DNA of 64,000 nucleotides from Nocardiopsis suaedae. GTDB taxonomy: Bacteria > Actinomycetota > Actinomycetes > Streptosporangiales > Streptosporangiaceae. Below are positions 1 to 57,087 of the stretch, one piece after another. Below the pieces are notes generated by a model, which worked only from the letters and a program-made list of their open reading frames with translations, searched no databases and had not been told where the DNA came from. The stretch is taken from contig NZ_JAQFWP010000002.1 of assembly GCF_027706745.1 (NCBI RefSeq), positions 124,001 through 188,000 of the forward strand, given 5' to 3'. The stretch's first letter is position 1; every line of letters starts with the position of its first letter. A program made the position numbers and the translations under genes.

Positions 1-1031
1 GCGGTCTACTGGTGAGATTCGATCGCGGTGTTGCTGTTTACGATCCGAAAACCGGGCGGGAGAAGTGGCGCTACTTCACACCTGCGCTGGAGACATGGGT
101 TGCCGTCGATTCATACCGAAAAAGTATTTTGCTCAACTATCCGCAGGATGATGCAGGGGGCTTCGAAGTCGCAAATGTGGATGCTGAAACCGGGTCGGTG
201 AATACGAGGACGCAGGTCGATGGTAATGCGGCTCCAGTGCAGTGGGGAAGTGTCAGCCGACTCCAAATGGCGAAGGACAATATACTTTCATTCGGCGGCG
301 GTGATGAAGTGTTCCTGCGGGCGTGGAGTCGAAGTACTCTGAATGAGGCGTGGCGCTGGGAAGGTATTGACGGTTGCGCACCAAGTGCTCAGGACCCCAC
401 AGATGCCCGCTCGAGTGCGGCCTACATGGCTGACAGTCTTTTTCTCCCCTTTCTGTGTACGTCGGACGGAAACTCGTGGAGAATCGTTTCTTTGGACTCA
501 AGTGCGGGCGATGTGCAGTGGAAGGCCGACCTCCAGGTAGACGACACCGATACCTACTCCATTCCCAGACTGTATGTCGACGGTGACGGTAGGCGCATCT
601 TCGTGTCGGCTGGCACGAAAGACGTCGCTGTCCTTGATGCAACCAGTGGCGATGAAATTCAACGTTATGAAGGCGGTGAAGGTGAGTATGCGGTCGTCTC
701 AGGAGCGAATGGGGTGGGTGATGTGCTTGTTAAGATCGAAGAGGACCGGCTAGAAATCTCCCCGAGCGGCCTTTTCGATGACTCTGGTACCGCCCGCGTA
801 AATGTCGCAGGTGTGGATGCAGAGCAGCTCGTTTCTTCGGGGATATGGACGGGCAATGGATTGTTTTGGATGTCGTCGGACAGTGAATTGCAGTACGTTC
901 CGGTTGAGGGTGAGAGTGAATCCTTCGACTTGGGGGAAGGCGAGGGGTATGGTGTTGACGTAGTCGGTGGAGTCGCCGTAGTGGCTGAGAATCGAGATGG
1001 GCGAATTGTAGAGCTGTCCGGCTTTGCGTAA
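1..1031 (+). CDS. PQQ/BamB-like beta-propeller protein, 5'-truncated
   Basis: The reading frame is open to the left edge, so only the C-terminal part is present; a GTG at 12 exists but sits mid-domain. The visible ~340 residues look like quinoprotein-type propeller blades: phrases such as VYDPKTGREKWRY, VDAETGSV, VSLDSSAGDVQWKADL and VLDATSGDEI recur about every 50-60 residues. Such proteins are usually exported or membrane-tethered and do not necessarily bind PQQ. G+C is unusually low: hand counts of bases 121-180 and 241-300 give 48% and 53%, against 80% at 5041-5100. It resembles the lipoprotein gene at 23439-24815 in repeat type and relatively low G+C. No specific function can be assigned. 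Confidence 0.75.
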   Translation, partial: GLLVRFDRGVAVYDPKTGREKWRYFTPALETWVAVDSYRKSILLNYPQDDAGGFEVANVDAETGSVNTRTQVDGNAAPVQWGSVSRLQMAKDNILSFGGGDEVFLRAWSRSTLNEAWRWEGIDGCAPSAQDPTDARSSAAYMADSLFLPFLCTSDGNSWRIVSLDSSAGDVQWKADLQVDDTDTYSIPRLYVDGDGRRIFVSAGTKDVAVLDATSGDEIQRYEGGEGEYAVVSGANGVGDVLVKIEEDRLEISPSGLFDDSGTARVNVAGVDAEQLVSSGIWTGNGLFWMSSDSELQYVPVEGESESFDLGEGEGYGVDVVGGVAVVAENRDGRIVELSGFA

Positions 1032-1250
1032 CCGGCTGAGGCGCCGCAACCCTGTGTAAGATTCAATCCACCCGACGGAAGGAACCCCCGTGGTCATGGG
1101 CCTGGTGCTCGGACGGCACCGCTCCCGTGCTTCGGTGCGGGGGATCTCCTTCCCGGATGGCCTCTGACCCCCAGGCGGCCCCTGTCGTACTCTCGACCCC
1201 TGCATCGAAGCGCTGCTGGATACCGGCACCTTCGATCCCTGGAGTACCGC

Positions 1251-2429
1251 ATGGCCACCGTCGCCTGGACCGAGAACGGGACCTCCCGCACCGCCCTGTG
1301 GCGGTCCGAGAACTCCGCCCCGGCTCCCTCCCGTGTCGTCGTTGCCTCCGAGCGGACCACCGTGGACGCCGCCTACCGGCTCCTCCGGTCCGACATCGGG
1401 GTCCTCTGGCTTGGCGACTATGAGAGCGGGCGCCGACTCCTCCAAGGGGTCGACCGGCGGCACCAGCGGGAGACGCAGAGGCGGTCCCGTCGAGGAGGGA
1501 GCGGGAAGAAGGGCACTGTAGCCCTCTTCCATGAGCACCGCACGGCCCGCGCCGGCCGTGCCCGTCTGCTCGGGCGGCTGCTCGTCATCCTTGAACCCGA
1601 CCTCTCCCTGGCGCTGCGCCGCGCGCCGGATGTTCGGGCGGCTTGCGTGCACGCCTATGGGGAGGGGGACGGAAGCGCCCCCGAGCGGACTTGTGCGTCG
1701 CTGTCGGAGCTCGTCGGCGTGCTCAGCGCGTACGACTGGCACCTGAAAGGCGTCGAGGTTCCCCAACTCGGCGCGCGCATCCATCCGGCCTACAGTGTCT
1801 TCTCTCCCACGCGCAGCGAGTACGTGGACCTCGTCGCCCAGGCGCCCTTCCCCGAGGGCGTGGACCACCCGGTTGTGTACGACCTCGGCACGGGCACCGG
1901 CGTGCTCGCCGCGCTCCTTGCCCGGCGGGGCGCGAAGCAGGTGGTCGCGACCGACATCAACGCTCGCGCGGTCGCCTGCGCGCGCGCCAACGTGCAGCGC
2001 CTCGGGCTCACCGACCGGGTACAGGTGGTCGAGGGTGACCCGTGGCCGGACGGCCGCGCCGACCTCGTCGTCTGCAATCCTCCTTGGCTGCCGGGGCAGC
2101 CCAGCTCGGATCTGGATCGCGCCGTCTATGACCCCGACTCCGAGATGCTGCACCGTTTCCTGAGTGGCCTCGCCGAGCATCTGACCCCGGTGGGGGAGGG
2201 GTGGCTCGTGCTGTCGGACTTCGCCGAGCATGTCGGCCTAAGGACCCGGGCCGATCTGCTCAGCGCCATCGCGGATGCGGGTCTCCGTGTCGCCGACCGC
2301 CTGGACACCGTCCCCGACCACCCGCGCGCTGACGACCTCGCCGACCCCCTTCACGCGGCCAGGCGCCGGGAAGTCACCTCCCTGTGGCGGCTGGTTCCGG
2401 AGGGCGAAGGCGGGCCGTCGGAGGCGTGA
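1251..2429 (+). CDS. Class I SAM-dependent methyltransferase (MTS/HemK-like, NPPW motif)
   Basis: A 392-residue protein. The C-terminal half is a Rossmann methyltransferase: the SAM-binding loop DLGTGTGVLAALLARRG begins near residue 211, an acidic ATDIN follows at the end of beta-2, and the catalytic-type motif NPPW is near residue 275. NPPY/W methyltransferases modify planar nitrogen (glutamine side chains, or adenine/guanine in nucleic acids). The N-terminal half (about 1-190) is an accessory region with a Lys/Arg-rich stretch near residues 70-90. The ATG at 1251 follows GGAG with good spacing. It seems monocistronic. The substrate cannot be read from sequence; a ribosomal-protein, release-factor or RNA target would fit. 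Confidence 0.82.
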   Translation: MATVAWTENGTSRTALWRSENSAPAPSRVVVASERTTVDAAYRLLRSDIGVLWLGDYESGRRLLQGVDRRHQRETQRRSRRGGSGKKGTVALFHEHRTARAGRARLLGRLLVILEPDLSLALRRAPDVRAACVHAYGEGDGSAPERTCASLSELVGVLSAYDWHLKGVEVPQLGARIHPAYSVFSPTRSEYVDLVAQAPFPEGVDHPVVYDLGTGTGVLAALLARRGAKQVVATDINARAVACARANVQRLGLTDRVQVVEGDPWPDGRADLVVCNPPWLPGQPSSDLDRAVYDPDSEMLHRFLSGLAEHLTPVGEGWLVLSDFAEHVGLRTRADLLSAIADAGLRVADRLDTVPDHPRADDLADPLHAARRREVTSLWRLVPEGEGGPSEA

Positions 2430-2431
2430 AG

Positions 2432-2446
2432 CGGCGGAGGCCGCCG
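2432..2446. terminator. Short GC hairpin between convergent genes
   Basis: CGGCGG-AGG-CCGCCG forms a 6-bp stem just after the methyltransferase stop and before the stop of the minus-strand hydrolase. There is no U-tract. It may act as a weak bidirectional terminator. Confidence 0.35.
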
Positions 2447-2474
2447 GGCCCTTGCGGCGGTGTCCAGGTGGGGT

Positions 2475-3377
2475 CTACTTGTCGGAGACGCTCCACGTGC
2501 TGTCGGCTGCCTGGGCGAATTCCTTCCACGCGGCGCCGTCGACCTTGAGTGCGTCGAGCAGGTAGGCGGCCACCGCGTCGGCGACCAGGGCGGCGCGGGC
2601 GGGGGCCTCGTCGGTGGTCTCGGCGGCCGCCTCGCCGACGATGCCGCCCAGCGAGTGCTCACCCTCGTCGATGGTGAGCAGGCTCTTGGGGGACGGGCTG
2701 AGGCGGTAGGCGTCGGTGAACCACTCCGGCCCGCGTGTGGAGAGCTGCGACTGGTCCTTGCCGCCCGCGATGACCAGTGTCGGTGCGGCCATGGTGGAGT
2801 AGTCCGGCCGCATGAACGGCAGGTGCTCGGCGGCGAACGGGGTGAGGGTGTCGCCGGTCCCGGTCGCGGCGATCAGGGCCCCGGCCGCGACCGCCGGGTG
2901 GGAGAAGTCCTCTCCGGGGGTGCCCTCGGCGTCGAGCACGCGCGCCCCGAGGACGGCGCCGGCGGTCTGGGCGCCCCAGGAGTGGCCGGCGACCGCGATG
3001 CGCCCGCGGTCGACCCGCTCCTCCAGGCCGTCGGCCTGGGCGAGGACGTCGCCGAGGCCGTCGATGACGGCGTGCAGGTCGGAGATCCGGACGCGCCAGA
3101 TGGTGGCGAAGCGCGGGTCGTCCCACCCGATGCCGTTGCGGCGGGAGTCCAGGTGGGTGGGCTGCACGACGGCGAACCCGGCGGCGGCCCACCGGTCGGC
3201 GAGGGGCGTGTAGGCGTCCATGGACCAGGCGTTGCCGTGGGAGAACACGATGACGGGCAGGTCGCGGCCCTCCGTCGGGGCGGTGACCTTCACCCGCAGG
3301 TCGGCGCCGCGGCCGGGGGCGGGGACGGTGAGGGGCTTGACCGAGGTGATCCGCTGGTCGGGGCGGTGGGAGGGCAT
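2475..3377 (-). CDS. Alpha/beta hydrolase (chlorophyllase/PAF-acetylhydrolase-like)
   Basis: A 300-residue alpha/beta hydrolase without an obvious signal peptide. The strand-turn VIVFSHGNAW (oxyanion region) is near residue 43 and the nucleophile elbow GHSWGAQTAG puts the serine near residue 132. A D-Q segment after LVIAGGKD and the late histidine in DEGEHSLGG complete a plausible triad. Members of this group hydrolyse esters of small or lipid-like substrates. It is divergent from the TetR gene at 3480, and two palindromes lie between them, so it is probably the TetR target. On the minus strand TTGACG (3443-3438) could be a -35 element. Substrate unknown. Confidence 0.8.
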   Translation of the reverse strand: MPSHRPDQRITSVKPLTVPAPGRGADLRVKVTAPTEGRDLPVIVFSHGNAWSMDAYTPLADRWAAAGFAVVQPTHLDSRRNGIGWDDPRFATIWRVRISDLHAVIDGLGDVLAQADGLEERVDRGRIAVAGHSWGAQTAGAVLGARVLDAEGTPGEDFSHPAVAAGALIAATGTGDTLTPFAAEHLPFMRPDYSTMAAPTLVIAGGKDQSQLSTRGPEWFTDAYRLSPSPKSLLTIDEGEHSLGGIVGEAAAETTDEAPARAALVADAVAAYLLDALKVDGAAWKEFAQAADSTWSVSDK

Positions 3378-3423
3378 GGGCTACCTGCGCTTTCCGGCGT
3401 GGGGACGCTCTGCCGTAGAGTGG

Positions 3424-3463
3424 CGGAACGATGTTCCGTCAATTTAGCGGAACAATGTTCCGC
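3424..3463. promoter_or_regulatory. Twin TetR operators in the divergent promoter
   Basis: Two near-identical palindromes sit 24 bp apart centre to centre: CGGAAC-GAT-GTTCCG (3424-3438) and GCGGAAC-AAT-GTTCCGC (3447-3463). They lie between the hydrolase start (3377) and the TetR start (3480). A TAGAGT box (3416-3421) precedes the first one on the plus strand. Their layout suits autorepression and co-repression of the hydrolase. Confidence 0.75.
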
Positions 3464-3479
3464 GAAGCAAGGAGGGGTC

Positions 3480-4070
3480 GTGTCCGAACCGGTCGGAGTG
3501 CGCCGGGCGCAGGCGCAGCGCACCCGCAGCGGGGTGCTGGAGGCCGCCGCGGCGGCCTTCGTCGACCAGGGGGTGCAGGCCCCTGTCCGCGACATCGCCG
3601 AGCGCGCCGGGGTCGGCGTCGGCACCGTCTACCGCCACTTCCCGACCCGGGCGGACCTGGTCACCGCCGTCTACCGGCACCAGATCGACACCTGCGCCGC
3701 GCTCGCTCCCCGGCTTCTGGAGGAGTCGGCCTCCCCGTCCGCCGCCCTGGCCCGCTGGGTGGACGCGTTCGCGGACTTCCTGGTGACCAAGCACGGCCTC
3801 GGTGCGGCGCTGGGCTCCGGCGACTCGGGGCTGGAGAACCTCCACACCCTCATGCTCGACACCCTGGTCCCGGCGTGCGCGTCGCTGCTCGACGCCTGCG
3901 CGGCGGCCGGGGAGATCAGGCCCGGCATCACCGCCTACACCTTCATGCGCGCCATCGGAAACCTCTGCATCACCGGTCCCGACTATGACCAGGCCGACGC
4001 CAAGCGCATGGTCACCGTCCTCCTGGACGGATGCCGGGCGGCCCCCGACCGCCTGGACACCCGGCCTTAG
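3480..4070 (+). CDS. TetR/AcrR family transcriptional repressor
   Basis: A 196-residue repressor. The N-terminal helix-turn-helix is typical: TRSGVLEAAAAAFVDQG, then VRDIAERAGVGVGTVYRHF at about residues 40-58, which holds the recognition helix. The C-terminal ligand domain shows no close hallmark. The GTG start is chosen because AAGGAGGGG lies immediately upstream and the HTH then begins at the usual distance from the N-terminus; longer upstream readings run through the operators. Twin palindromes at 3424-3463 suggest that it controls itself and the divergent hydrolase. The effector is unknown but may be a substrate of that hydrolase. Confidence 0.88.
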   Translation: MSEPVGVRRAQAQRTRSGVLEAAAAAFVDQGVQAPVRDIAERAGVGVGTVYRHFPTRADLVTAVYRHQIDTCAALAPRLLEESASPSAALARWVDAFADFLVTKHGLGAALGSGDSGLENLHTLMLDTLVPACASLLDACAAAGEIRPGITAYTFMRAIGNLCITGPDYDQADAKRMVTVLLDGCRAAPDRLDTRP

Positions 4071-4231
4071 GGCGTGTAACACTCCCGCCGACAGAACACA
4101 TCAGCCTGTCAGCGCCCGGTCGGTGGTGGAGCGCGCTGGCGTGCCCGCTCGGTGCGGGCGCGGCCAGTCACTCCGGCGTCGAACCCGGACCGCGGTCGTG
4201 TGCGTGCCGAGCCGTACGCGAAAGGACCGCC

Positions 4232-4915
4232 ATGTCCACCGACCGAAACCCCCGCGCCGACCGGTTCGGGCTCGACGACGACGCCTACGTCCCCGACCCC
4301 GAGCGCGACACGGCGATGCTGCTGGACGCCTTCTACCGGCGTCTCGGCGAGGAACTGGACGACCGCTCCCCGGCGGCCGCCATGCGCGCGCGTCAGGACG
4401 AGGTCGAAGCGGCGAACCGGTCCCGGGTCGTCGACGCCCCCGCGCGCCAGAACCTCCGCATGGTGGCGGCGCTGATGGCCGCCTATGAGGCCCTGCGCTC
4501 CCGGCTGGGGCGGGACGCCGCCCTCGACCTCGTCCGGGTCTGCTTCAACGAGCCGTTCGCCGACGCCATCAGGGAGGGCACGCGGGCGAGGCTGGACGAT
4601 GCCGAGGACGCTTTCTCCTCCATCGTGGAGATGAGCAAGGCCCGCGAGGAGTTCGCGTTCGGCAAGGGCTTCGTCTTCGACCGCGCCGCCGACGACGGCG
4701 GCCGCTACCACGTCGACGTGCACCGCTGCTTCTTCCACGAGGTGCTGTCGGCCAACGGGGCGCCGGAACTGACGCCGGTCCTGTGCGCGTTCGACGCCGC
4801 CTGGATCGAGGCCATCGACCCCGGCGGGCACGGGTTCCGCTTCGAGCGCCCCACCACCATCGGCACCGGAGGAACGCACTGCCCGTTCCACTTCGACCGG
4901 ACCCGGGAAACGTGA
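4232..4915 (+). CDS. L-2-amino-thiazoline-4-carboxylic acid hydrolase family protein
   Basis: A 227-residue cytosolic protein. The C-terminal half carries the family's pattern: VHRCFFHEVL, then LTPVLCAFDAAWIEAID, and a terminal GTGGTHCPFHFDR with the conserved Cys-Pro-Phe-His-Phe. The N-terminal part is a helical segment with a LVRVCFNEPFADAIREG stretch. The founding enzyme opens ATC to S-carbamoyl-cysteine in a Pseudomonas cysteine pathway, but most actinobacterial members are uncharacterised, so this is a family assignment only. The ATG at 4232 follows AAAGGA. It stands alone, 161 bases after the TetR gene. Confidence 0.75.
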   Translation: MSTDRNPRADRFGLDDDAYVPDPERDTAMLLDAFYRRLGEELDDRSPAAAMRARQDEVEAANRSRVVDAPARQNLRMVAALMAAYEALRSRLGRDAALDLVRVCFNEPFADAIREGTRARLDDAEDAFSSIVEMSKAREEFAFGKGFVFDRAADDGGRYHVDVHRCFFHEVLSANGAPELTPVLCAFDAAWIEAIDPGGHGFRFERPTTIGTGGTHCPFHFDRTRET

Positions 4916-5268
4916 ACTCCCCTCCGGTCTCCACGGCCATCTGCGTATTTCGAGAGTGGTCGAACACCGTTGTGCGGGAGGGAGCGCCGCGGTGATCATG
5001 AGTGCGCGGTCGGCCGCGGCGAGTGCGAGGCGCGGCCGGTGCGGTGGCAGAGACGGCGCCGCCCTCGGGGCGGCGTCGCAGGTGCGGGTCTGCCGACCTC
5101 TCCTGGGGCGGCTGATGGGGGCCGTCGTCGGGGCGGCGGACCCGCGCCCGCGAATCCCCGATCGTGCTCCGGCCCCGGCGATCCGTCCTCGCCGGGGTGC
5201 ACGTGTCACAGTCGCAGGCGGCGCGGCGTCTCATGGGAAACGGCCGCGAGACGCGACAGGAGCACGCC
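4916..5268 (+). promoter_or_regulatory. Intergenic region with sigJ upstream DNA
   Basis: This 353-base gap has no supportable gene. It holds the ECF41-type promoter (5204-5230) and the GACAGGAG ribosome-binding site of the sigma factor. Nothing else stands out. Confidence 0.5.
5204..5230 (+). promoter_or_regulatory. ECF41-type autoregulatory promoter of the sigma factor
   Basis: TGTCACA (5204-5210), a 16-base spacer, then CGTC (5227-5230). This is the -35/-10 pair described for ECF41 sigma factors. It lies 38 bases before the start codon of the ECF41 gene itself, which implies that the sigma factor transcribes its own gene. Confidence 0.75.
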
Positions 5269-6162
5269 ATGCCCGAGCCCGAAGCGGACGCCGCGACGGA
5301 GGCGTTCGTCGAGCACCGCAACCTGCTCTTCACCGTCGCCTACGAGATGCTCGGTTCGGCGGCGGACGCGGAGGACGTCCTCCAGGAGACGTGGATGCGG
5401 TGGTCGGGCGTCGACCTCGCGTCGGTGCGGGACCGGCGCGCGTACCTGGTCACGATCACCACCCGCCAGTCCCTCTCGCGGCTGCGCGTGCTCGGGCGCC
5501 GCAAGGAGAGCTACTTCGGCCCGTGGCTGCCCGAGCCGCTGCTGACCTCCCCCGACGTGGCCGAGGACGTCGAGCTGGCCGACAGCATCTCCACGGCGAT
5601 GCTGCTGGTGCTGGAGACGCTGGCGCCGACCGAGCGGGCGGTGTTCGTGCTGCGCGAGGTGTTCGACGTCGGGTACGCCGAGATCGCCGAGGCGGTCGGC
5701 AAGTCGCAGGCCGCGGTCCGGCAGATCGCCCACCGGGCCCGCGCCCACGTCGCCGAGCGGCGCCCGCGCGGCGCCGCGACCCCGAAGGAGACGCGGGAGG
5801 TGACCGCGGCCTTCCAGCGGGCCGTGGAGACGGGCGACCTGCAGGGGCTGGTGGACACGCTGGCGCCCGACGTCGTGGTGCTGGCCGACGGCGGCGGCGT
5901 GAAGCAGGCGATCTCCAAGCCGGTGGTGGGCGCGGACCGTGTGGCGCGCCTGTTCCAGACCGGTATCAGCCGGTTCGGCGGGAAGATGAAGGTCGACCCG
6001 GTGCAGGTGAACGGGTGGCCCGGGCTGATGGTCCGGATGGACGGGCAGGTCGACAGCGTGCTGACGCTGCGGGTCGAGGACGGCCTGATCACCGGCATCT
6101 ACAACGTCCGCAACCCGGAGAAGCTGGCCCGCTTCGGCGAGGAGACGGCCCTGGGGAGGTGA
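5269..6162 (+). CDS. sigJ: ECF41-family RNA polymerase sigma factor (SigJ-like)
   Basis: A 297-residue extracytoplasmic-function sigma factor. Sigma-2 spans about residues 8-75 (FTVAYEMLGSAADAEDVLQE), the linker has WLPEPL, and sigma-4 spans about 115-165 (REVFDVGYAEIAEAVGKS). A C-terminal SnoaL/NTF2-like extension (about 175-297) carries the ECF41 marks DGGG (near 206) and NPEKL (near 282). In this group the extension, not a separate anti-sigma factor, sets activity. The ATG at 5269 has ACAGGAG upstream. ECF41 genes usually neighbour a carboxymuconolactone decarboxylase, oxidoreductase or epimerase; no such gene adjoins this one. The upstream TGTCACA/CGTC promoter predicts autoregulation. 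Confidence 0.92.
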   Translation: MPEPEADAATEAFVEHRNLLFTVAYEMLGSAADAEDVLQETWMRWSGVDLASVRDRRAYLVTITTRQSLSRLRVLGRRKESYFGPWLPEPLLTSPDVAEDVELADSISTAMLLVLETLAPTERAVFVLREVFDVGYAEIAEAVGKSQAAVRQIAHRARAHVAERRPRGAATPKETREVTAAFQRAVETGDLQGLVDTLAPDVVVLADGGGVKQAISKPVVGADRVARLFQTGISRFGGKMKVDPVQVNGWPGLMVRMDGQVDSVLTLRVEDGLITGIYNVRNPEKLARFGEETALGR

Positions 6163-6224
6163 GGGGCCGAGGTGAGGGCGACGCGCCGGGGGCGGCCGCA
6201 CAAGGGCGCACGAGGCCGCACGAT

Positions 6225-6261
6225 GGGGCCCACGCCTGCGGCGTGGACCCCCGTGGGCCCC
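6225..6261. terminator. Bidirectional hairpin terminator after sigJ
   Basis: GGGG-C-CCACGCC-TGC-GGCGTGG-A-CCCC (6225-6250) forms a nearly perfect 12-step stem. An alternative 10-bp pairing GGGGCCCACG/CGTGGGCCCC spans 6225-6261. It lies between two convergent genes. Confidence 0.65.
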
Positions 6262-6276
6262 GGTGAGGAGGCTGTG

Positions 6277-8691
6277 TCAGGCCGACCGGCGCAGGTACGA
6301 CGCCCGGAGCGCGGCCGTGCCGACGGCGATCAGGAGCGCGCCCGCGGCCAGCATGCCGGTGACCGCCCCGCCCGTCAGGGGCAGGCGGCCGCCGCCGTCC
6401 CCGTGAGGCGGGTCCGCCTCGTCCGGCGGAACCGGCTCGTCGGGCGACGGCTCGGGCTCCGGTTCCGGCTCAGGGCTGGGCGTGGGCGAGGGCGAAGGAG
6501 ACGGGGCGGGCGGCACGACGTCCACCTCGGTGCCGCAGTTGGCGGGGGCGTCGCCCTCACAGCGGCCGTTCGGATCGTCCGTGGTGGCCGCGTTGGTGAG
6601 CTTCCCGTCGCCGCCGTCCAGGTCGCCGACGGTCGCCGTGTAGGTGAGCGTGACGGTCTGGCCGGGCTCCAGCGGGCCCGACCACGTCAGTTCGGGAGCG
6701 CTGTAGGACACCTCTCCGAGGGGCGCGCCGTTGGCCGAGGCGGCCGCGTCCTCGTTGTAGGCCGCGTCGTCCAGGACGCCGCTGAGGTCGTCGGTGACGA
6801 CGGCCGGGTCGTCCTCGGTGTAGGCCGTGCTGCCGGTGTTGGTGGCCGTGACGGTGTAGGCGACCGTGTCGCCCGGATGCACGGGCCCGGCGGGGTCGAC
6901 CGACTTGGCGACCTCCAACGCGCGGTCCCCGATCGTGACCGTGTGGTCCTCGACCTCGCCTCCGATGGTGCGTCCGGTCGGGGCGGGCGCGTCGTCTTCC
7001 GCGCGTTCCGATTCGGCAGGCGCGTCGCCCGCTGAGGCGATGCGGAACCGGGCGTATGTGCCGCCCTCGTCGGCCGGGGCGGGGAAGTCCAACTCCACCG
7101 TTGTCATACCGGAGCCTGCCGGGACGGTGGCGGTCCGCCGCTCGTCCTCCCCGAAGGAGCCGTCCCGGTCGAGGTCGACCCACCCGGCGAGCGTCGCCGC
7201 GTCGCCGGTGCTGTTGACCACCTTCACGGGGACGGTGAGATCCCGGCCGACGAGACCGGTGATGGGTCCCGTCGCGTCCTCGTCGTCGTCGGCGGGGCCG
7301 GTGGTGTCGTCCCCGTCGGCGGCCGGGCCGGGGGCGCCGTCAGGCTCGGCGTCGACCGTGTCGCCGAGCATCAGAGCCGCCGTATGCACGTCGGGCTCCT
7401 CGTCCCTGAGGAGGTGCACGGCGCCGTCGTTCGCGAGCGTCGTCCCGTAGGAGTCCGGGGCGTCGCCGAAGTCCGCGTTCGCGAAGGACACGTCCGCGTC
7501 CTCGGGCGGATTGATGCCGACCGCGTCGCTGACCTCGCCGGCCCCGTTGGTGTAGGTGCCGGTCTCGTCCGAGGTGACGTCCAGGGCGATCGTGCAGGAG
7601 ACCTCCTGGGCGGCCAGGGAACCGTTGGTGACGGCGACGGTGCTGCCGCCGCCCTCCGCTTCGACGTCGGCCGTGCAGGTGGTGTCCAGATCCGGGTCGT
7701 CGGCGATGCGCAGGCCGTCGGGGAGCGTGTCGGTGAAGGACCAGCCGTCCTTGGCCGCCAGCTCGGACGTGTTCGTCACCGTGAGGGTGAGCCGCGACGT
7801 CTCCCCGACGATGCGCACCCGCGGGTCGAAGGCCTTGTCGAGCTGCGGCGTCACGTCGAGGACGGCGATGTTGTCGTAGGCGCCGTCGTTGCCGAACCGC
7901 TGGCCCTGGTCGTTGCGGAGCACGATGTCGAAGGCGCCGCCGCGCAGCAGGTACGACCCGTCGGCAGGGAAGGTGCCCGCGCGGAAGCCGGTCTGGCCGG
8001 GGATGTCGATGCCCCGCGGGTCGGCGCAGACGTCGATGGCCGAGTCGGACATGGGGCGCTCGGTGCCCTGGGAGTCGATCAGCGAGAACCGCAGCCTCGG
8101 CGGGGTCCATATGTCGGCGTGCTGGCAGTTCATCGCGGCGGCGTCCACGGAGAAGGTGACGAACCTGCTCTCGACCGGCAGTGCGATCGGGGCGGCGGTG
8201 CGGAACTGGACGGCCCCGGCGGGGCCGTCGCCCTCGGTGAAGGAGGCGACGCCGGCGTTGGTGCCGGGGTCGTCGGAGCCGCGGAGCGTTCCGAGGGCCG
8301 TGGTCAGTTTCTGGAGGATGGTGAAGGCGCCCTCCTCCTGCCCTGCCGAGGTGCAGTCGTCGTCCTGCCTCTGGCTGGTGGAGTCGACGATGAAGCCGTT
8401 GCAGTCGGGGCGGTTCACCCAGTACGGGTCGGCGGTGTAGGTCTGGCCCGTCGCGCCGATGTAGTTCTGCAGGCTCGTGTTGGTGCCTTCACCGGTCTGC
8501 TCGAAGTCCTCCTGGAAGAGGACCTGCGGGTCGGTGGGCACTCCGGGGTGGCCGGGCTCGGCGGCGGCCGCCTGGGGGTGGAGCGGCACGGCGGCGACCG
8601 CGCCCACAGCCGTGGCCGCGATGGCCGCCGTCCAGCGGCGCGTTCGGTCGCGGCGGGGTGAGCGGTCGGGTCGGGCCCCAGGCTGCGTCAT
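6277..8691 (-). CDS. LPXTG-anchored surface protein with GEVED and DUF11-like domains
   Basis: An 804-residue exported protein. An arginine-rich N-terminus plus hydrophobic AAIAATAVGAVAAVPL forms the signal peptide. A lectin/jelly-roll-like region fills about 50-290 (VLFQEDFEQT at its start). A DUF11-like module follows (about 295-400), then a GEVED-type domain (about 408-590, DFGDAPDSYG to GEVEDHTV) with acidic Asp runs suggesting calcium, and a second DUF11-like module (about 591-710). After a Pro/Glu-rich wall spacer comes LPLTG (near 770), a hydrophobic helix and an Arg tail: a complete sortase signal. ATG at 8691 is preferred over upstream starts because GAGGGGA precedes it. No sortase gene is in the window. 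Confidence 0.85.
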   Translation of the reverse strand: MTQPGARPDRSPRRDRTRRWTAAIAATAVGAVAAVPLHPQAAAAEPGHPGVPTDPQVLFQEDFEQTGEGTNTSLQNYIGATGQTYTADPYWVNRPDCNGFIVDSTSQRQDDDCTSAGQEEGAFTILQKLTTALGTLRGSDDPGTNAGVASFTEGDGPAGAVQFRTAAPIALPVESRFVTFSVDAAAMNCQHADIWTPPRLRFSLIDSQGTERPMSDSAIDVCADPRGIDIPGQTGFRAGTFPADGSYLLRGGAFDIVLRNDQGQRFGNDGAYDNIAVLDVTPQLDKAFDPRVRIVGETSRLTLTVTNTSELAAKDGWSFTDTLPDGLRIADDPDLDTTCTADVEAEGGGSTVAVTNGSLAAQEVSCTIALDVTSDETGTYTNGAGEVSDAVGINPPEDADVSFANADFGDAPDSYGTTLANDGAVHLLRDEEPDVHTAALMLGDTVDAEPDGAPGPAADGDDTTGPADDDEDATGPITGLVGRDLTVPVKVVNSTGDAATLAGWVDLDRDGSFGEDERRTATVPAGSGMTTVELDFPAPADEGGTYARFRIASAGDAPAESERAEDDAPAPTGRTIGGEVEDHTVTIGDRALEVAKSVDPAGPVHPGDTVAYTVTATNTGSTAYTEDDPAVVTDDLSGVLDDAAYNEDAAASANGAPLGEVSYSAPELTWSGPLEPGQTVTLTYTATVGDLDGGDGKLTNAATTDDPNGRCEGDAPANCGTEVDVVPPAPSPSPSPTPSPEPEPEPEPSPDEPVPPDEADPPHGDGGGRLPLTGGAVTGMLAAGALLIAVGTAALRASYLRRSA

Positions 8692-48381: not shown

Positions 48382-49998
48382 GTGGACCTGGTCATATCCG
48401 GCGCGCGGGTCATCGACGGCGGGGGAGGGCCCTCCTTCACCGCCGATGTCGGCGTCGAGGGCGGGCGGATCACCGCGGTCCGCCGCGGCGGCGGACCGCC
48501 CCTCACCGGCGCGCAGCGCCTGGACGCCGACGGGCTCGCCCTGGCGCCCGGCTTCATCGACATGCACGCCCACTCCGACCTGGCCCTGCTGCGCGACCCC
48601 GACCATTCGGCCAAGGTCGCCCAGGGCGTCACCCTGGAGGTCCTCGGGCAGGACGGCCTCAGCTACGCGCCGGTCGACGACCGCACCCTGGAGCAGGTGC
48701 GCCGCGCCATCACCGGGTGGAACGGCGACGGGTCCGACATCGACTTCGACTGGCGGACGGTGGGGGAGTACCTGGACCGCCTCGACCGGCAGGGCATCGC
48801 GGTCAACGCCGCCTACCTGGTGCCGCAGGGGTCGGTGCGCATGCTCGCCCTGGGGTGGGAGGACCGCGAGCCGACCGCCGCGGAGCTCGACCGGATGCGG
48901 CGACTGGTCGCCGAGGGCATGGAGCAGGGCGCCGTCGGAATGTCGTCCGGGCTCACCTACACGCCCGGCATGTACGCCTCGGGTGCCGAGCTCGCCGAGC
49001 TGTGCGCGGTGGTCGCCCGGTACGGCGGCTACTACTGCCCCCACCACCGTTCCTACGGGGCCGGTGCGCTCGACGCCTACGCCGAGATGGTGGACCTGGC
49101 CCGCCGGACCGGGTGCGCCCTGCACCTGGCCCACGCCACCATGAACTTCGCGCCGAACAAGGGGCGCGCTCAGGAGTTGCTGGACCTGGTCGACCGCGCG
49201 CTGGAGGACGGCGTCGACGTCACCCTGGACACCTACCCCTACACCCCCGGCTCGACGACGCTGGCGGCGATGCTGCCGAGCCGGGCGAGCGAGGGCGGTC
49301 CCGACGCGGTCCTCGCCCGCCTGGCCGACCCGGAGGAGACGGCGCGCATCCGCCACGTGATGGAGGCGGAGGGGTCCGACGGCTGTCACGGGGTGCCCAT
49401 CGAGTGGGACACCATCGAGATCTCCGGGGTGTCCGACCCGGCGCTGTCCCCCTACGTCGGCAAGTCCGTCGCCGCGTCGGCGGCCGAGCGCGGCGAGGAG
49501 CCGTTCACAACGGCGCACCGGCTGCTGGTGGAGGACCGGCTCGGGACGACGATCCTGCAGCACGTCGGGCACGAGGAGAACGTGCGGGCCATCATGGGCC
49601 ACCGGGTGCACTCCGGCGGCAGCGACGGCATCCTCCAGGGCGACAAGCCGCACCCCCGGGCCTACGGCACCTTCCCGCGCTACCTCGGCCACTACGCGCG
49701 CGACGAGGGCGTGCTGGCGCTGGAGGAGTGCGTCGCCCACCTGACGTCCCGCCCGGCGGCGCGGCTGGGACTGGCCGACCGGGGCCGGGTGCGCGAGGGG
49801 TACAGGGCCGACCTGGTCCTGTTCGCCCCGGAGACGGTGGACGCGGGGGCCACGTTCGAGCGCCCGCGCGCGCTCCCGGTGGGCGTGCCGCACGTGCTGG
49901 TCGACGGGCGCTTCGCCGTCCGCGACGGGGTGCGCACCGATGTGCTGGCGGGCCGGGCGGTGCGCGGTGGCCGGAACCGGCCACCGGAATCGGTGTGA
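48382..49998 (+). CDS. N-acyl-D-amino-acid deacylase (D-aminoacylase)
   Basis: A 538-residue amidohydrolase-superfamily enzyme. Metal-ligand motifs are FIDMHAHSD (near residue 57), CPHHRSYG, LHLAHATMN and GSDGILQGDKPHP followed by YGTFPRYLG, all features of D-aminoacylases. They hydrolyse N-acyl-D-amino acids to the D-amino acid and acyl group, using one or two zinc ions. AGGAGG precedes the GTG at 48382. It is in an operon with the deaminase; ridA and iclR face it. Probable role: use of N-acylated D-amino acids from peptidoglycan or peptide natural products. Confidence 0.92.
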   Translation: MDLVISGARVIDGGGGPSFTADVGVEGGRITAVRRGGGPPLTGAQRLDADGLALAPGFIDMHAHSDLALLRDPDHSAKVAQGVTLEVLGQDGLSYAPVDDRTLEQVRRAITGWNGDGSDIDFDWRTVGEYLDRLDRQGIAVNAAYLVPQGSVRMLALGWEDREPTAAELDRMRRLVAEGMEQGAVGMSSGLTYTPGMYASGAELAELCAVVARYGGYYCPHHRSYGAGALDAYAEMVDLARRTGCALHLAHATMNFAPNKGRAQELLDLVDRALEDGVDVTLDTYPYTPGSTTLAAMLPSRASEGGPDAVLARLADPEETARIRHVMEAEGSDGCHGVPIEWDTIEISGVSDPALSPYVGKSVAASAAERGEEPFTTAHRLLVEDRLGTTILQHVGHEENVRAIMGHRVHSGGSDGILQGDKPHPRAYGTFPRYLGHYARDEGVLALEECVAHLTSRPAARLGLADRGRVREGYRADLVLFAPETVDAGATFERPRALPVGVPHVLVDGRFAVRDGVRTDVLAGRAVRGGRNRPPESV

Positions 49999-50108
49999 GT
50001 TCCGGGTGAGCGCTGCCGTGGTTGGCTTCCCTCTGCGAGGAGGTGGTGCTTTTGTGGCACCCGCGACCGATGAGGGAAAAAGCGGCGGAAGAAATTCCGG
50101 AAACCTGT

Positions 50109-51341
50109 ATGTCCGAATCCGGGCTGCCGCTGGCCGCGCACATGGTCGAGTCGATGGACGCGGCCGACGCCCTGTGGGACGGCTACCTCTCCCCGGCCTT
50201 CCGCGAGGGGCTCGCCGCGGACATCGGGGAGGGGAGCGCGCGGGCGCTGTACCGCTGGCTGTCGGCCCTGTCCGGGCTGGGCCGGTGCACCCCCGGCTAC
50301 CAGCGGCTGCACGCGGCCCGCTACTCCGGCGACCCGGCCGTCGCCCCGGTCCCGGTGGCGCCCCGCACCGGGCGCCACGAGCGCGCCTCGTCGTACCTGA
50401 CGGCCCTCTTCCTCCGCGAGGAAGGGTGGTCGCGCGAGGCGGCCGAATGGGCGGGATACGCCGTCGGCGGATGGAGGGTGAACGTCCTCCGAGAGGCGGC
50501 CGATTCCGAGGAGTGGGGCGGTGCGGAATGGCGCGCCCTCCAACGCGACCTCTTCCACGGAATGACCGGTGCGGCCGGATTCCCTCTGGAATCGCTCGCC
50601 TGGCACGTTCCTTCCCCGGGCGTTCAACTCGCCTGTTCGGGCGCGGTCATCCTGGCCGACCGGGTGGCCGCGCAAGGGGGAGAGCTTCCGGCGGCCGCGC
50701 CCCCGGCCCTGGCCGACCTGTCCGCCCCGGGCGGCGGCACGGGCGACCCCCGGGTGCACGAGGCGGCCCTGGAGGCCGCCTTCGAGATGGAGACGCCCGG
50801 CCTCCTGCTGATCGCCTCCCCTGACGGCACCGAGGCCGCCTTCGCCGCCGCGGAGGTCCTGGCCGCAAAGTTCGGGCTCGACGGGTTCTTCTACGCCCTG
50901 CCCACCCAGGAGGCCCTGGACGCCGCGGCCGACCGGGTCGTGGGAGAGCGGCGCAGGAGCCTCAACGGGATGGGCACGCTGGAACAGCTCCGGCTCGACC
51001 AGGCCGACACCACCGACCCGCGCATGATGCTCCGGCAGCTCACCCTGGTGACCCGGGCCGTGATCATCGACGCGGCCGATACCTCCGCCACCTCCGCCGA
51101 CACTGCGGCCGTCCCGGCCCCGCGCAGGGCGCGGCGGCTGCCGCGGGCCGTCCCGCCCGCCCTGTCCTGGCTCGGCGAGCACGGGGTGCCCGCGGTGCTC
51201 CTCACCCCCGACCTGGGCGAAGGGGAGCGGGGCGCGCTCTTCGAGGCCTACACCGGTGATCTGCTGGTGCGGCCCAGGCAGGGGACCTCGCCGCGGATCA
51301 CCTGGGCCACCGCCCCCCAGCGGCGGTCCCGGGCCGCGTGA
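50109..51341 (+). CDS. Stand-alone, catalytically degraded Cas3-like protein
   Basis: A 410-residue protein that follows the Cas3 order. Residues 6-20 (LPLAAHMVESMDAAD) match the Cas3 HD N-terminus. RALYRWLSALSGLGRCTPGYQ (46-65) occupies the place of WLxGxHDxGKxxPxFQ, so the HD pair is SG. RHERASSYL (89-97) and VGGW (119-122) stand for RHDL and VGGHHG, and SGAVILADRVAAQ (177-189) for SGxVIxADWIASN. PGLLLIASPDG-TEAAFAAAEVLAA (230-253) has lost the Walker A GEGKT. AVIIDAADTSA replaces the DEVH box, and ALSWLGEHGVPAVLLTPDL replaces LSATL. It is cut short after the first RecA domain. No cas gene or array adjoins it. The start could be upstream (50052 TTG, GGAGG). Role unknown. Confidence 0.72.
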   Translation: MSESGLPLAAHMVESMDAADALWDGYLSPAFREGLAADIGEGSARALYRWLSALSGLGRCTPGYQRLHAARYSGDPAVAPVPVAPRTGRHERASSYLTALFLREEGWSREAAEWAGYAVGGWRVNVLREAADSEEWGGAEWRALQRDLFHGMTGAAGFPLESLAWHVPSPGVQLACSGAVILADRVAAQGGELPAAAPPALADLSAPGGGTGDPRVHEAALEAAFEMETPGLLLIASPDGTEAAFAAAEVLAAKFGLDGFFYALPTQEALDAAADRVVGERRRSLNGMGTLEQLRLDQADTTDPRMMLRQLTLVTRAVIIDAADTSATSADTAAVPAPRRARRLPRAVPPALSWLGEHGVPAVLLTPDLGEGERGALFEAYTGDLLVRPRQGTSPRITWATAPQRRSRAA

Positions 51342-51369: not shown

Positions 51370-52113
51370 TCACGGGAGCGGGACGGTCAGCCCGGGCCGG
51401 GCGACCGTCGTGGGCCCCTGGAAGGACGTGGCCGCCGCCCGCTCCGCCTCGGCGGGGGAGGTCCCCGGCCACAGGTGGGTCAGGACCAGGCGGGCCGCCC
51501 CGGCCTGGGCCGCGTACCTCCCGGCGAGCTCGGCGGAGAGCAGGTACGGCGCCTCCAGGAGGGGGACGCGGTCGACGAAGGTCGCCTCGCACAGCAGCAG
51601 GTCGGCACCGGCCGCCAGCTCGGTGATGTGCGGGCTGGGCCCGGTGTCGCCGGTGTAGGCGAAGACCGTCCCCGCGGCCGTCAGGCGCAGCCCGGCGTTG
51701 GGGACGTGGTGCGGCAGCCGCCGCGTCTCGGCGAGGAACGGGCCGACCGGGAAGGCGTCCCCGGGGTCGAACGACCGCAGGTCCCAGGCGCCGTCCACCG
51801 CGGAGCCGCGGTCGAGGGCGAGCACGGCGTCCAGCGCGCCGTGCGGGGCGTGCACGGCCAGCCGGGGGCAGGGCGGGTCGGCGTAGGCGCGGGCCCGCAG
51901 CAGCGGGGCGAGGTCGGCGCAGTGGTCCGGATGGCCGTGGCTGACCAGGACCGCGTCGACGGCGGCGGGCGAGGTGTGCTCCTGCAGGCGCGGCATCACC
52001 GCGAACCCGGGGTCGACGAGCAGCCGGAAGCCCTGGTGCACCAGGAGGTAGCCGCTGCACGCCTGGGCGGCCGTCGGCCAGGCGCCGCTCCCGCCCAGAA
52101 CCGTCAGCCTCAT
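51370..52113 (-). CDS. MBL-fold metallo-hydrolase (RNase Z-like)
   Basis: A 247-residue metallo-beta-lactamase-fold enzyme. The metal site HGHPDHCADL is near residue 60; a later His (ETRRLPHHVPN), AYTGDTGPSP and LTHLWPG complete the ligand set. The N-terminal RLTVLGGSGAWP resembles RNase Z/PqsE-type proteins, but the RNase Z flexible arm is absent. No Shine-Dalgarno is seen before the ATG; TAGGGT (52127-52122) ends eight bases upstream, so the message may be leaderless. It is convergent with the Cas3-like gene, with 28 bases between stops. The substrate is unknown. Confidence 0.85.
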   Translation of the reverse strand: MRLTVLGGSGAWPTAAQACSGYLLVHQGFRLLVDPGFAVMPRLQEHTSPAAVDAVLVSHGHPDHCADLAPLLRARAYADPPCPRLAVHAPHGALDAVLALDRGSAVDGAWDLRSFDPGDAFPVGPFLAETRRLPHHVPNAGLRLTAAGTVFAYTGDTGPSPHITELAAGADLLLCEATFVDRVPLLEAPYLLSAELAGRYAAQAGAARLVLTHLWPGTSPAEAERAAATSFQGPTTVARPGLTVPLP

Positions 52114-52133
52114 GTGCGGCGACCCTATCCGGT

Positions 52134-53443: not shown

Positions 53444-53664
53444 CGGGATCTCCAACCCAGGTCTTCGGGAGCGGATGGGCGCTCGCCCGTGGACGCCGGA
53501 ATTCTACGGGGCCCAGGAAGGGCGGATCGGCCGCATCCGTCGACACGGTCGTGCATCGTCCGAACACCGGGCCGGACGGGGCGATACCGTACGGACCGTA
53601 CCGTTGCGGGCGCGCCGGTCGCCGGTGGTGGTGGAACGCCCCCTGTCCCCTCTGGAGTGCATGG

Positions 53665-56600
53665 ATGTTCACGGTCCACGTGTCGAGGTCCGCGCGCGGC
53701 GCGGCCTCCGGTCTCGATGAGATCCTCCGGCACCCCTCGTGCGCCGGGATGGACCTCTACCTGCACGTGGACCCCGGGGAGTACACGGCCGACGCGGCGC
53801 ACGTCGTGGACCGCCACGTGATCGTGGTGCCGACCCAGGGCCCGGGCACGGTGTCGGTCTCGGTGGCCGACGACGCCGTCTTCGAGGTGCGCCAGGGCCG
53901 CCTGGAGCTGTACGGGATCGAGGTGGTCGGCGGGTCGCAGCAGCACCCCGGCATCGAGCTGTACCCCGGCACCTCCATGAAGGCCCTGGACTGCGTCTTC
54001 GCCCTGCCGCTCGGCATCGCCGCGGACGCGGCCCCGGTGGACCTGGAGGGGTGCCGGGTCTCCGGCGGCACGCTGCGCATGCGCGGCGGTGGCGGCCGGG
54101 TCGTCGACACCGCCTTCGACCGCGGCGGGGCGGAGGTCACCGGGGAGGCGCGGGCCGAACTGCGGGGGCTGCGCTTCACCGGCCCGTCGCAGAGCCACGC
54201 CCTGGTGGTCGCCGACCGCGCCGCCCCTGAGATCACGGAGTGCTCCTTCACCGGCACGGGCACCGAGGAGAACCTCACCGTGGGCGTGGTGGGAGGAGCG
54301 TCCCCCTCCTTCACCGACTGCACCGTCGAGGACGCCGCCGGGCGGGGGGTCTGGGCGGGACAGCGCTCGACCCCCACCTTCACCCGGCTGCGGGTGTCCG
54401 GCGGTATCCGCGACCAGGTCGCCCTGCTGGTCGAGGAGGACTCCCGGGCGACGTTCCGGGACTGCGCCGTCAGCGCGGCCGCCGGGCCGGTCCTCTTCGT
54501 GCACCAGTCCGAGGCGCGCGTGTCCGGGCTGGAGGTGGACGGTGCCGCTGCCGACGTGTTCCAAGGGGTGGGCGGCCGGATCAGCGTGGACGGCGCCAGG
54601 CTCCGGGACGTCTCCGGCACCGCGCTCAATCTGCAGGGCGCCGCCCGTGCGGAGGTCCGGGGGCTCGACATGCGCTCCTCCCCCTCACAGGCCGGGGAGG
54701 AGCCCAAGCCGGGGATCCGCCTGTCCGGCTCTCGCGCCGACATCGACGGCTCCACCATCACCGGGACCGGGGCCGGGATCGGGGTGATCGCGCGCGAGAG
54801 CTCCCTCGCCCTGCGCTCGGTCGAGATCAGCGGCGTGCTCTCCGGCGTGCGCATCCTGGACGACACCACTCTCAAAGCCGAAGGGCTGACCGTCGCCCGC
54901 TGCCACAGGAGCGCGCTGCTGGCGGACTCGGGGGCCTACGGCGAGGTCTCCGGGGCCGACCTGCGGGTCCTGGGCGGGGGGACCAACGGCGTCACCGTAG
55001 GGGACGGGGGCCGCATCGCCCTCAAGGACTCCACGGTCGCCGGGGGCACGAACGGGATCGCGGTCACGGACGGCGGCGCGGCGACCGTCGAGGAGACCAC
55101 CATCACCGGCGTGAACCAGGTCGGCGCCGGGGTCAAGGGGACCGGGCGGCTCCGCCTGGTGCGCTGCACGCTGCGCCGCAACGGGCAGAAGGACCTCCAC
55201 GCCGACCCCGGGTCCGTGCTCCAGGTGGAGGACACCGAGACCGAGAAGGGCCTCCCCGAGCAGGCGGTGCGCGCGGCCGCCGACCGGAGCGCCCCGGCCC
55301 CCGCCCCCGCCCCGCCCCCCGACACCGATGCGCGCCCGCTCGGCGAGGTCCTCGCCGAGCTCGACGCGATGGTCGGCCTCGACGGGGTGAAGAAGGAGGT
55401 CCGCGCGCTGGTCGACCTGCACCGGGTGAACGCCAAGCGCGTCGAGGCCGGGCTGCCGAGCCTCGACTTCAGCAGGCACCTGGTGTTCTCCGGTCCGCCC
55501 GGCACCGGCAAGACCACCGTGGCGCGCATCTACGGGCAGGTGCTGCGCTCCCTCGGGGTGCTGGAGCGGGGCGGCTTCATCGAGGCCTCCCGCGCCGACC
55601 TCGTCGGCGAGCACCTCGGCGAGACCACGCGCAAGACCACCGAGCTGTTCCAGCGCGCCCGCGGCGGCGTGCTGTTCATCGACGAGGCCTACGCCCTCTC
55701 CCGCTCCTTCGGCAGCGGCGCCGACTTCGGCCAGGAGGCCATCGACGCCATGATCAAGCTGATGGAGGACGCGCGCGAGGAGGTCGTCGTGGTCTTCGCG
55801 GGCTACTCCGACGAGATGCGCACCTTCCTCGCCGCCAACCCGGGCCTGAAGTCCCGCGTCTCGCGCACCGTGGAGTTCCCCAACTACCAGCCCGAGCAGC
55901 TCGCCACCATCTTCACGGCCATGGCCGAGGGCAAGGGGTACATCCTCGGCCGGGGCGTGCGGGACCTGGTGGTCCGGCACTTCCAGGGGCAGACGCAGGA
56001 CGCCTCCTTCGGCAACGGCCGCGAGGCGCGGCGCATGTTCGAGCACGTGGTGCAGCGCCAGGCCAGCCGCCTGGTGGCCGACGGGGCCACCTCCGCCGAC
56101 GACCTCAGCCGGATCGTCCCGGGCGACCTGGAGGGCGCGGTCGACCCCGGGCTGACCGCCCGGGTGGGGGCCCCGCGCGACGAGCGGCAGGCCCAGACGC
56201 TGATGCGGCGCCTGGAGGCCATGGTGGGCCTGGACAGCGCCAAGCGCGAGGTGGCCGAGCTGACCAGCCTCATCTCGGCCGGGCGGCGCCGCCAGGCCGC
56301 CGGGCTGGAGGCGCCGCTGCCCTCCCGCAACCTGGTCTTCGCCGGGCCGCCCGGCACCGGCAAGACGACCGTGGCGCGCATCTACGGCGAGCTCCTGGCC
56401 GCCCTGGGGGTACTGGCCCAGGGGCAGGTGGTGGAGGCCTCCCGCGCCGACCTGGTGGGCCGGTACCAGGGGCACACCGCGCAGCAGACCCGCGAGGTGG
56501 TCGAGCGGGCGCGCGGCGGCGTGCTGTTCATCGACGAGGCCTACAGCCTGGCGGGCGGGGGCGGCGGGAACGACTTCGGCGCCGAGGCCGTGGAGACCCT

Positions 56601-57087
56601 GCTCAAGCTGATGGAGGACTACCGGGACGAGGTCGTGGTGATCGCCGCGGGCTACACCGACCGGATGCGCGCGTTCCTCTCCACCAACCCGGGCCTGGCC
56701 TCGCGCTTCTCGCGCACCGTCGACTTCGCCCCCTACACCCCGGGCGAGCTGGTGGACATCTTCGCCGACACCGCCCTGGCAGGGGACTTCCTGGTGCCCG
56801 ACGCCACGCGCGAGGCCGTCGCCTCGGCCGTGCGCTCGGAGCGGGAGCGCTTCTCCCACGGCAACGCCCGGGAGATCCGCAAGCTCTTCGAGGACTCCGT
56901 CGCCCGGCACTCGCGCCGCATCGAGCAGCAGGCGTCCGACGGCCGGGAGCCCACGCTCGAACAGCTCCAGAACCTGCTGCCCGAGGACGTCCTGCCCGGG
57001 GGCGTCCCCGGTGGTGCCGCCGCCCCGGCCTCCCCTGGGGACGGCGCCGCCTCCGCAGCGGATCCGAGCGTGCGCGGACGGCGATAA
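53665..57087 (+). CDS. Right-handed beta-helix fused to two CbxX/SpoVK-type AAA+ ATPases
   Basis: A 1140-residue, soluble protein. Residues ~1-520 form a right-handed parallel beta-helix: short strands recur every ~22 residues ([51 protein letters not shown]-like text). AAA1: Walker [17 protein letters not shown] near 610, Walker [12 protein letters not shown] near 667, [15 protein letters not shown] sensor region. AAA2: Walker A near 895, Walker [12 protein letters not shown] near 951. Both are of the CbxX/CfqX/SpoVK (EccA-like) group. ATG at 53665 follows CTGGAG. The helix may bind a substrate or polymer which the ATPases remodel; this is inference. Confidence 0.85.

Follow-up and report, generated by a model that had tools for sequence, protein, structure and literature searches.

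CRISPR parts are known to have been exapted mostly as effector complexes, nucleases and repeats that are still recognisable as systems. Nuclease-deficient derivatives of this kind include the type I CASTs that have lost cas3 and the Cas3-less type I-E systems with a STAND NTPase in Streptomyces (PMC8730458), and inactivated Cas10 is found in types III-G and III-H (PMC12669027). In all of these, as appears to be the case here, catalysis was lost and what was left was retained in a new role. The CASTs and Cas3-less I-E systems, however, keep the effector complex and lose Cas3, whereas at the locus described here an inactive piece of Cas3 alone is kept. Two further results bear on such a piece: the phage protein AcrE1 blocks Cas3 and turns the type I-E Cascade into a repressor (PMC5727412), and Thermobifida fusca (T. 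fusca) Cas3 without its C-terminal domain (CTD) binds Cascade more weakly, as cited in PMC5965380. No stand-alone inactive Cas3 has been described in the literature searched, which was mostly open-access and included the 2025 classification (PMC12669027) and a review of exaptation (PMC8730458).

The protein considered here, pseudo-Cas3, is encoded by an open frame of 410 codons at 50109-51341 (+) of the window, the whole 64-kb stretch of DNA that was analysed. Its nearest described counterpart is type I-E Cas3 (Cas3e; T. fusca, PDB 4QQW/6C66), with which it shares the order of an HD domain followed by the first RecA domain (RecA1), framework residues and the closest fold, and by tree the Cas3s of genomes G347, G025 and G192 stand closest to it. 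Unlike type I-E Cas3 it is without the HD, HH, Walker A, DExH and SAT motifs, the second RecA domain (RecA2), the linker helix and the CTD; its gene lies outside a cas operon, and the host lineage possesses an unrelated I-E Cas3 of its own. The stand-alone HD nucleases called Cas3'' (split Cas3, other type I subtypes) are likewise short members of the Cas3 family with an HD domain, but in pseudo-Cas3 the HD motif is lost, a RecA1 remnant is present, there are no cas neighbours and the NCBIfam Cas3'' model scores 25.2, below its cut-off of 43.45. Pseudo-Cas3 is best filed as an exapted Cas3 pseudoenzyme. The features of the locus are as follows.

48382..49998, + strand: amidohydrolase (Amidohydro_3, D-aminoacylase-like), which bounds both the conserved locus and the near-empty site on the left
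50017..50051, + strand: conserved 5' leader with Shine-Dalgarno GAGGAGG, of presumed function
50052..51341, + strand: coding sequence for pseudo-Cas3, 429 aa when read from the probable TTG start (profiles, alignment, Foldseek)
50109..51341, + strand: open frame of the preliminary description, ATG start, 410 aa (G005 has CTG in place of this ATG)
about 50109-50670, + strand: HD domain of pseudo-Cas3
about 50670-50790, + strand: remnant linker of pseudo-Cas3
about 50790-51252, + strand: RecA1 remnant of pseudo-Cas3
about 51252 to 51341, + strand: short tail of pseudo-Cas3
51373..52116, - strand: MBL-fold hydrolase (Lactamase_B_2), convergent

Homology to Cas3 was established by several routes. 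In a profile search the 410-aa product matched Pfam Cas3_HD (PF18019) over its first 187 residues with E=4e-15 and 56.8 bits (profile cut-off 23.1 bits), the PADLOC Cas3e profile covers residues 7-283 (E=6e-27), and a phmmer search of PDB sequences aligned the product with two segments of T. fusca Cas3 that follow each other in the same order. An AlphaFold2 model, built on an alignment that included real Cas3s, reached a pLDDT of 76; its best Foldseek matches, far above all others, were the Cas3s of T. fusca and T. terrenum, with E ~1e-13 and a TMq that reached 0.67. A model from the four orthologues only was of low confidence (pLDDT 42) and was set aside, so that the fold evidence leans on sequence homology. 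The Cas3 scaffold proposed in the preliminary description, HD and then RecA1, was thus recovered by Pfam, PADLOC and Foldseek, and the product of 50052/50109-51341 is confirmed as a derivative of type I-E Cas3 of 410-429 aa, comprising the HD and first RecA domains and then a stop. Chance resemblance is ruled out by the Cas3_HD match, the PADLOC Cas3e match and the tree. An antisense overlapping frame was rejected as the true gene, as it contains stops in all three orthologues; the pseudo-Cas3 frame is the sole one open in all four.

The losses were defined by aligning the four pseudo-Cas3 orthologues with 26 real Cas3s, and every substitution listed in the preliminary description was found again there. 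The catalytic motifs are invariant or almost so among the 26 real Cas3s, all of which are intact, and are lost in all four orthologues. HD has become SG, with the next K changed to R, in each of the four; the HHG/HH ligands are replaced by WRV, HRV or WKA, the W after the last Asp of the HD domain is R (4/4), Walker A is deleted or replaced (4/4), DEVH reads DAAD, DAAE, DAAG or DATA, and SAT reads TPD, GTG or AAG. The HD-RecA1 linker is shorter by about 45 aa, and some 50 aa have been lost from between motifs Ia and Ib. RecA2 and the CTD are absent, and both the open frame and the alignment agree with the earlier statement that the protein ends before RecA2. None of the marks of a functional Cas3 nuclease-helicase (HD, HH, Walker A, DExH, SAT, RecA2, CTD) was therefore found. 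Retained are the first His of the HD domain, the His of RHE, the Asp of ADx and around fifty residues of the framework, as well as RecA1 motif Ia (PTQ) and the GT of motif Ib. Three of the HD-domain ligand positions are kept (H30, H109 and D203, numbered from the TTG start), and it is conceivable that they could form a partial metal site. The species differ at the former active-site positions but agree throughout in the framework blocks and at 78 derived positions. The orthologues have a pI of 5.1-5.7 and one to five lysines.

Translation probably starts at TTG 50052 rather than at ATG 50109. GAGGAGG (50037-50043) lies eight bases before the TTG, the peptide from the TTG lines up with the Cas3 N-terminus (x-W-G-K, 'xWGK'), and ATG 50109 is replaced by CTG in G005. 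In the relatives 1-nt indels sit just 5' of the TTG, and the reading frame must therefore start after them. The region 50017-50110, consisting of the leader and first codons, is almost unchanged in the two closest orthologues; over a 110-nt query, two orthologues show about 98-100% identity in the leader, and G005 shows 84%. A possible short hairpin at 50025-50044 contains the Shine-Dalgarno GAGGAGG, and at a guess this hairpin over the ribosome site might serve as a control element. A CRISPR-repeat-like nature of the leader was rejected, since the best match of the host repeat in the window has 8/29 mismatches and lies elsewhere, and the leader occurs at the pseudo-cas3 locus only.

In all four carriers pseudo-cas3 lies between the D-aminoacylase-like gene and the convergent MBL-fold hydrolase gene. 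Pseudo-cas3 and the MBL gene form a segment of ~2.2 kb, and each of the six Nocardiopsis genomes compared has either both genes or neither. In G003, ~100 bases after the amidohydrolase comes the gene that in the window lies beyond the MBL gene; G004 is likewise without the segment, and both species are without pseudo-Cas3 and the MBL gene. A single gain in the ancestor of the four carriers or a single loss in the other two fits this distribution equally well. Homologues of the MBL hydrolase (46-62%) are widespread without pseudo-Cas3; the two proteins were therefore rejected as one system, and their linkage may be positional. That the remainder of Cas3 might follow downstream past a frameshift, a condition raised at the outset, was contradicted: the 3' end of the convergent MBL gene comes 29 bases after the stop, and the orthologues end alike. 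Further along, at 53560-57087 (+), there is a large gene, of which G003 seems to hold two tandem copies; its translation suggests a product whose N-terminal region is right-handed-repeat-like and which carries two CbbX-like AAA+ modules.

The surroundings had been described as free of cas genes and repeat arrays over 64 kb. The 64-kb window yielded no CRISPR-like array, and in a whole-genome search Cas3_HD matched the pseudo-Cas3 frame and contigs C3 and C48, and Cas5 matched C3 and C48 only, so that the window holds no other cas3 or cas5; the statement stands for arrays and, by the Cas3_HD and Cas5 profiles, for these two genes. Neither the cas operon nor the array that marks a type I-E locus beside cas3 accompanies pseudo-cas3. 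Judged by sequence, pseudo-Cas3 is a Cas3 homologue, but is predicted to be neither a functional Cas3 nor part of a CRISPR locus.

Intact pseudo-Cas3 was found in three of the five other genomes of the genus, at 86% identity in G001 (the Nocardiopsis chromatogenes record, L031), 89% in G002 (N. endophytica, L032) and 64% in G005, with no stops and with the same truncation point throughout. Pairwise codon models gave omega values of 0.11-0.17, with omega=1 rejected for every pair (2dlnL 72-183), over a divergence of dS 0.4-2 among the four species. The HD+RecA1 part of the host's own Cas3 has an omega of 0.06-0.09; for the adjacent amidohydrolase, in pairs with unsaturated dS, it is 0.03-0.07. 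As the omega of pseudo-Cas3 is 2-3x that of the neighbour and ~2x that of host Cas3, the constraint upon it is moderate. In-frame indels of 3, 9, 15, 21, 24, 36 and 81 bases are all multiples of 3, and the stops, frameshifts or dN/dS near 1 expected of a pseudogene were not found; GC3 is 0.86-0.93, slightly under the 0.96-0.99 of the neighbours. The losses and the truncation common to four species, the intact frames and the purifying selection upheld the suggestion that this is a retained, non-catalytic derivative. Beyond the four species no pseudo-Cas3 was found in the 343 family genomes searched. The other short Cas3_HD matches in 395 class genomes are partial, broken or at contig ends, with the exception of a 504-aa frame with a strong Cas3_HD match in G653. 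A phage or plasmid gene was rejected: the phages and viral contigs searched gave no match, and the plasmid matches were Streptomyces Cas3s of <32% identity.

Phylogenetic analysis of the HD+RecA1 region nests pseudo-Cas3, with support of 93-100, among the I-E Cas3s of G347, G025 and G192, which sit in I-E operons. It is far from the host's own Cas3 in these trees and about 26-31% identical to it, and a copy made by duplication of host Cas3 is ruled out by the tree. The stem branch is long, at 1.37 substitutions/site, and a phase of fast change that would have followed the loss of activity can be seen in it. A search for cas operons elsewhere in the genome, which had been recommended, showed that contigs C3 and C48 each carry a type I-E locus. 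In the one on C48, Cas3, Cse1 and Cse2 are fused in one open frame of 1754 codons (772-6033, +; L035/L121), the HD motifs of the fused Cas3 being intact and its helicase motifs changed (EDPG for DEAH, STA for SAT); the 20 kb examined near this locus contained no repeat array. A type I-E locus is present in each of the four carriers. Those of G000, G001 and G002 are one system, which has 71-90% identity to the one in the non-carriers G003 and G004. On contig C117 of G005 (4138-6648, +; L120) there is an I-E system unrelated to those of its five congeners, with cse1 at 28% (G000 vs G005) and cas3 at 31%, which suggests that in this genus I-E systems have been replaced as wholes. Additional Cas5 matches lie on other contigs of G002 and G005; among the I-E systems examined in the carriers, a set apart from these second type I loci, none is of the parental lineage of pseudo-Cas3.

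It is possible that pseudo-Cas3 is a host-made modulator of I-E immunity, which would dock on Cascade (Cse1) in the place of Cas3 and block Cas3 recruitment. The outcome would be the same as with AcrE1, interference being lowered or Cascade made a repressor; AcrE1 is a phage protein for which no sequence relation to pseudo-Cas3 is claimed, and docking on Cascade is here hypothetical. The presence of an I-E locus in all four carriers, the retained HD and RecA1 framework and the demonstration that a block on Cas3 can convert Cascade (PMC5727412) are in keeping with such a role. It is nevertheless unlikely, given that the I-E systems of the carriers are of different lineages and none of those examined comes from the parental clade, that G003 and G004 hold the G000-type system without pseudo-Cas3, and that the CTD is missing, the domain without which T. 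fusca Cas3 is cited as a weaker Cascade binder (PMC5965380). A decoy that sequesters phage anti-CRISPR proteins directed against Cas3 would need a surface and no catalysis, and Cas3-binding anti-CRISPRs (AcrE1, AcrF3) do exist, but we regard this as very improbable: no anti-CRISPR that targets Cas3 is known in these hosts, a decoy should look like the host Cas3 rather than one of another lineage and such low identity, and pseudo-cas3 is chromosomal, single-copy and vertically kept.

The usual DNA channel of such helicases requires RecA2. A nucleic-acid-binding protein that retains the DNA/RNA contacts of Cas3 without its enzymatic activity could account for the conservation of PTQ and of the GT of motif Ib, yet the acidic pI and few lysines, the deletion between Ia and Ib and the absence of RecA2 make this quite doubtful. 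The lost catalytic motifs, the missing RecA2 and CTD, the slightly low GC3 and the occurrence of short Cas3 remnants elsewhere might instead be read as the decay of a former I-E locus, now without function. Such decay is extremely improbable as the present state, which the preliminary description had allowed: the gene is intact in four species over the whole range of dS, neutrality is rejected in every pair, all indels within the frame are 3n, and there are no stops. Of the new role suggested earlier, retention in four species speaks for the general idea, while the DNA-binding and specific-Cascade versions are weakened by the acidic pI, the non-parental I-E systems and the non-orthologous system of G005.

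The chances seem to us about even that pseudo-Cas3 is an exapted pseudoenzyme working, most likely, as a protein-binding scaffold or regulator independent of Cascade. A protein-binding role is the most likely because there are no nuclease or ATPase residues, the pI is low and RecA2 is absent. Cascade would not be needed because no I-E Cascade of the parental type was found in the carriers and the CTD that strengthens Cascade binding is gone, and independence is favoured because G005 keeps pseudo-cas3 beside an unrelated Cascade. According to this explanation the half of a type I-E Cas3 that comprises HD and RecA1 would have come from a lineage other than that of the host Cas3, lost its nuclease and helicase functions, become fixed in one Nocardiopsis clade and been held there by purifying selection. 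The homology, the catalytic losses, the common truncation, the synteny, the near-empty site in the sister species, the selection and the phylogenetic origin are results of the analysis. We infer from them that the protein acts non-catalytically, with the HD/RecA1 framework serving as an acidic scaffold or regulator; it would do so by binding other proteins, candidate partners being the products of the adjoining genes or the general cell machinery. That this half of Cas3, free of CRISPR, was domesticated into a non-catalytic and Cascade-independent cellular protein is put forward more tentatively, at somewhat less than an even chance.

If this explanation is true, the signature nuclease-helicase itself can turn into a pseudoenzyme with a new role, and the sister species without pseudo-cas3 make the question of that role testable. 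If instead pseudo-Cas3 acts on Cascade, it would be a host-encoded, Cas3-derived brake on I-E immunity, and would bear on the control of CRISPR in Actinobacteria.
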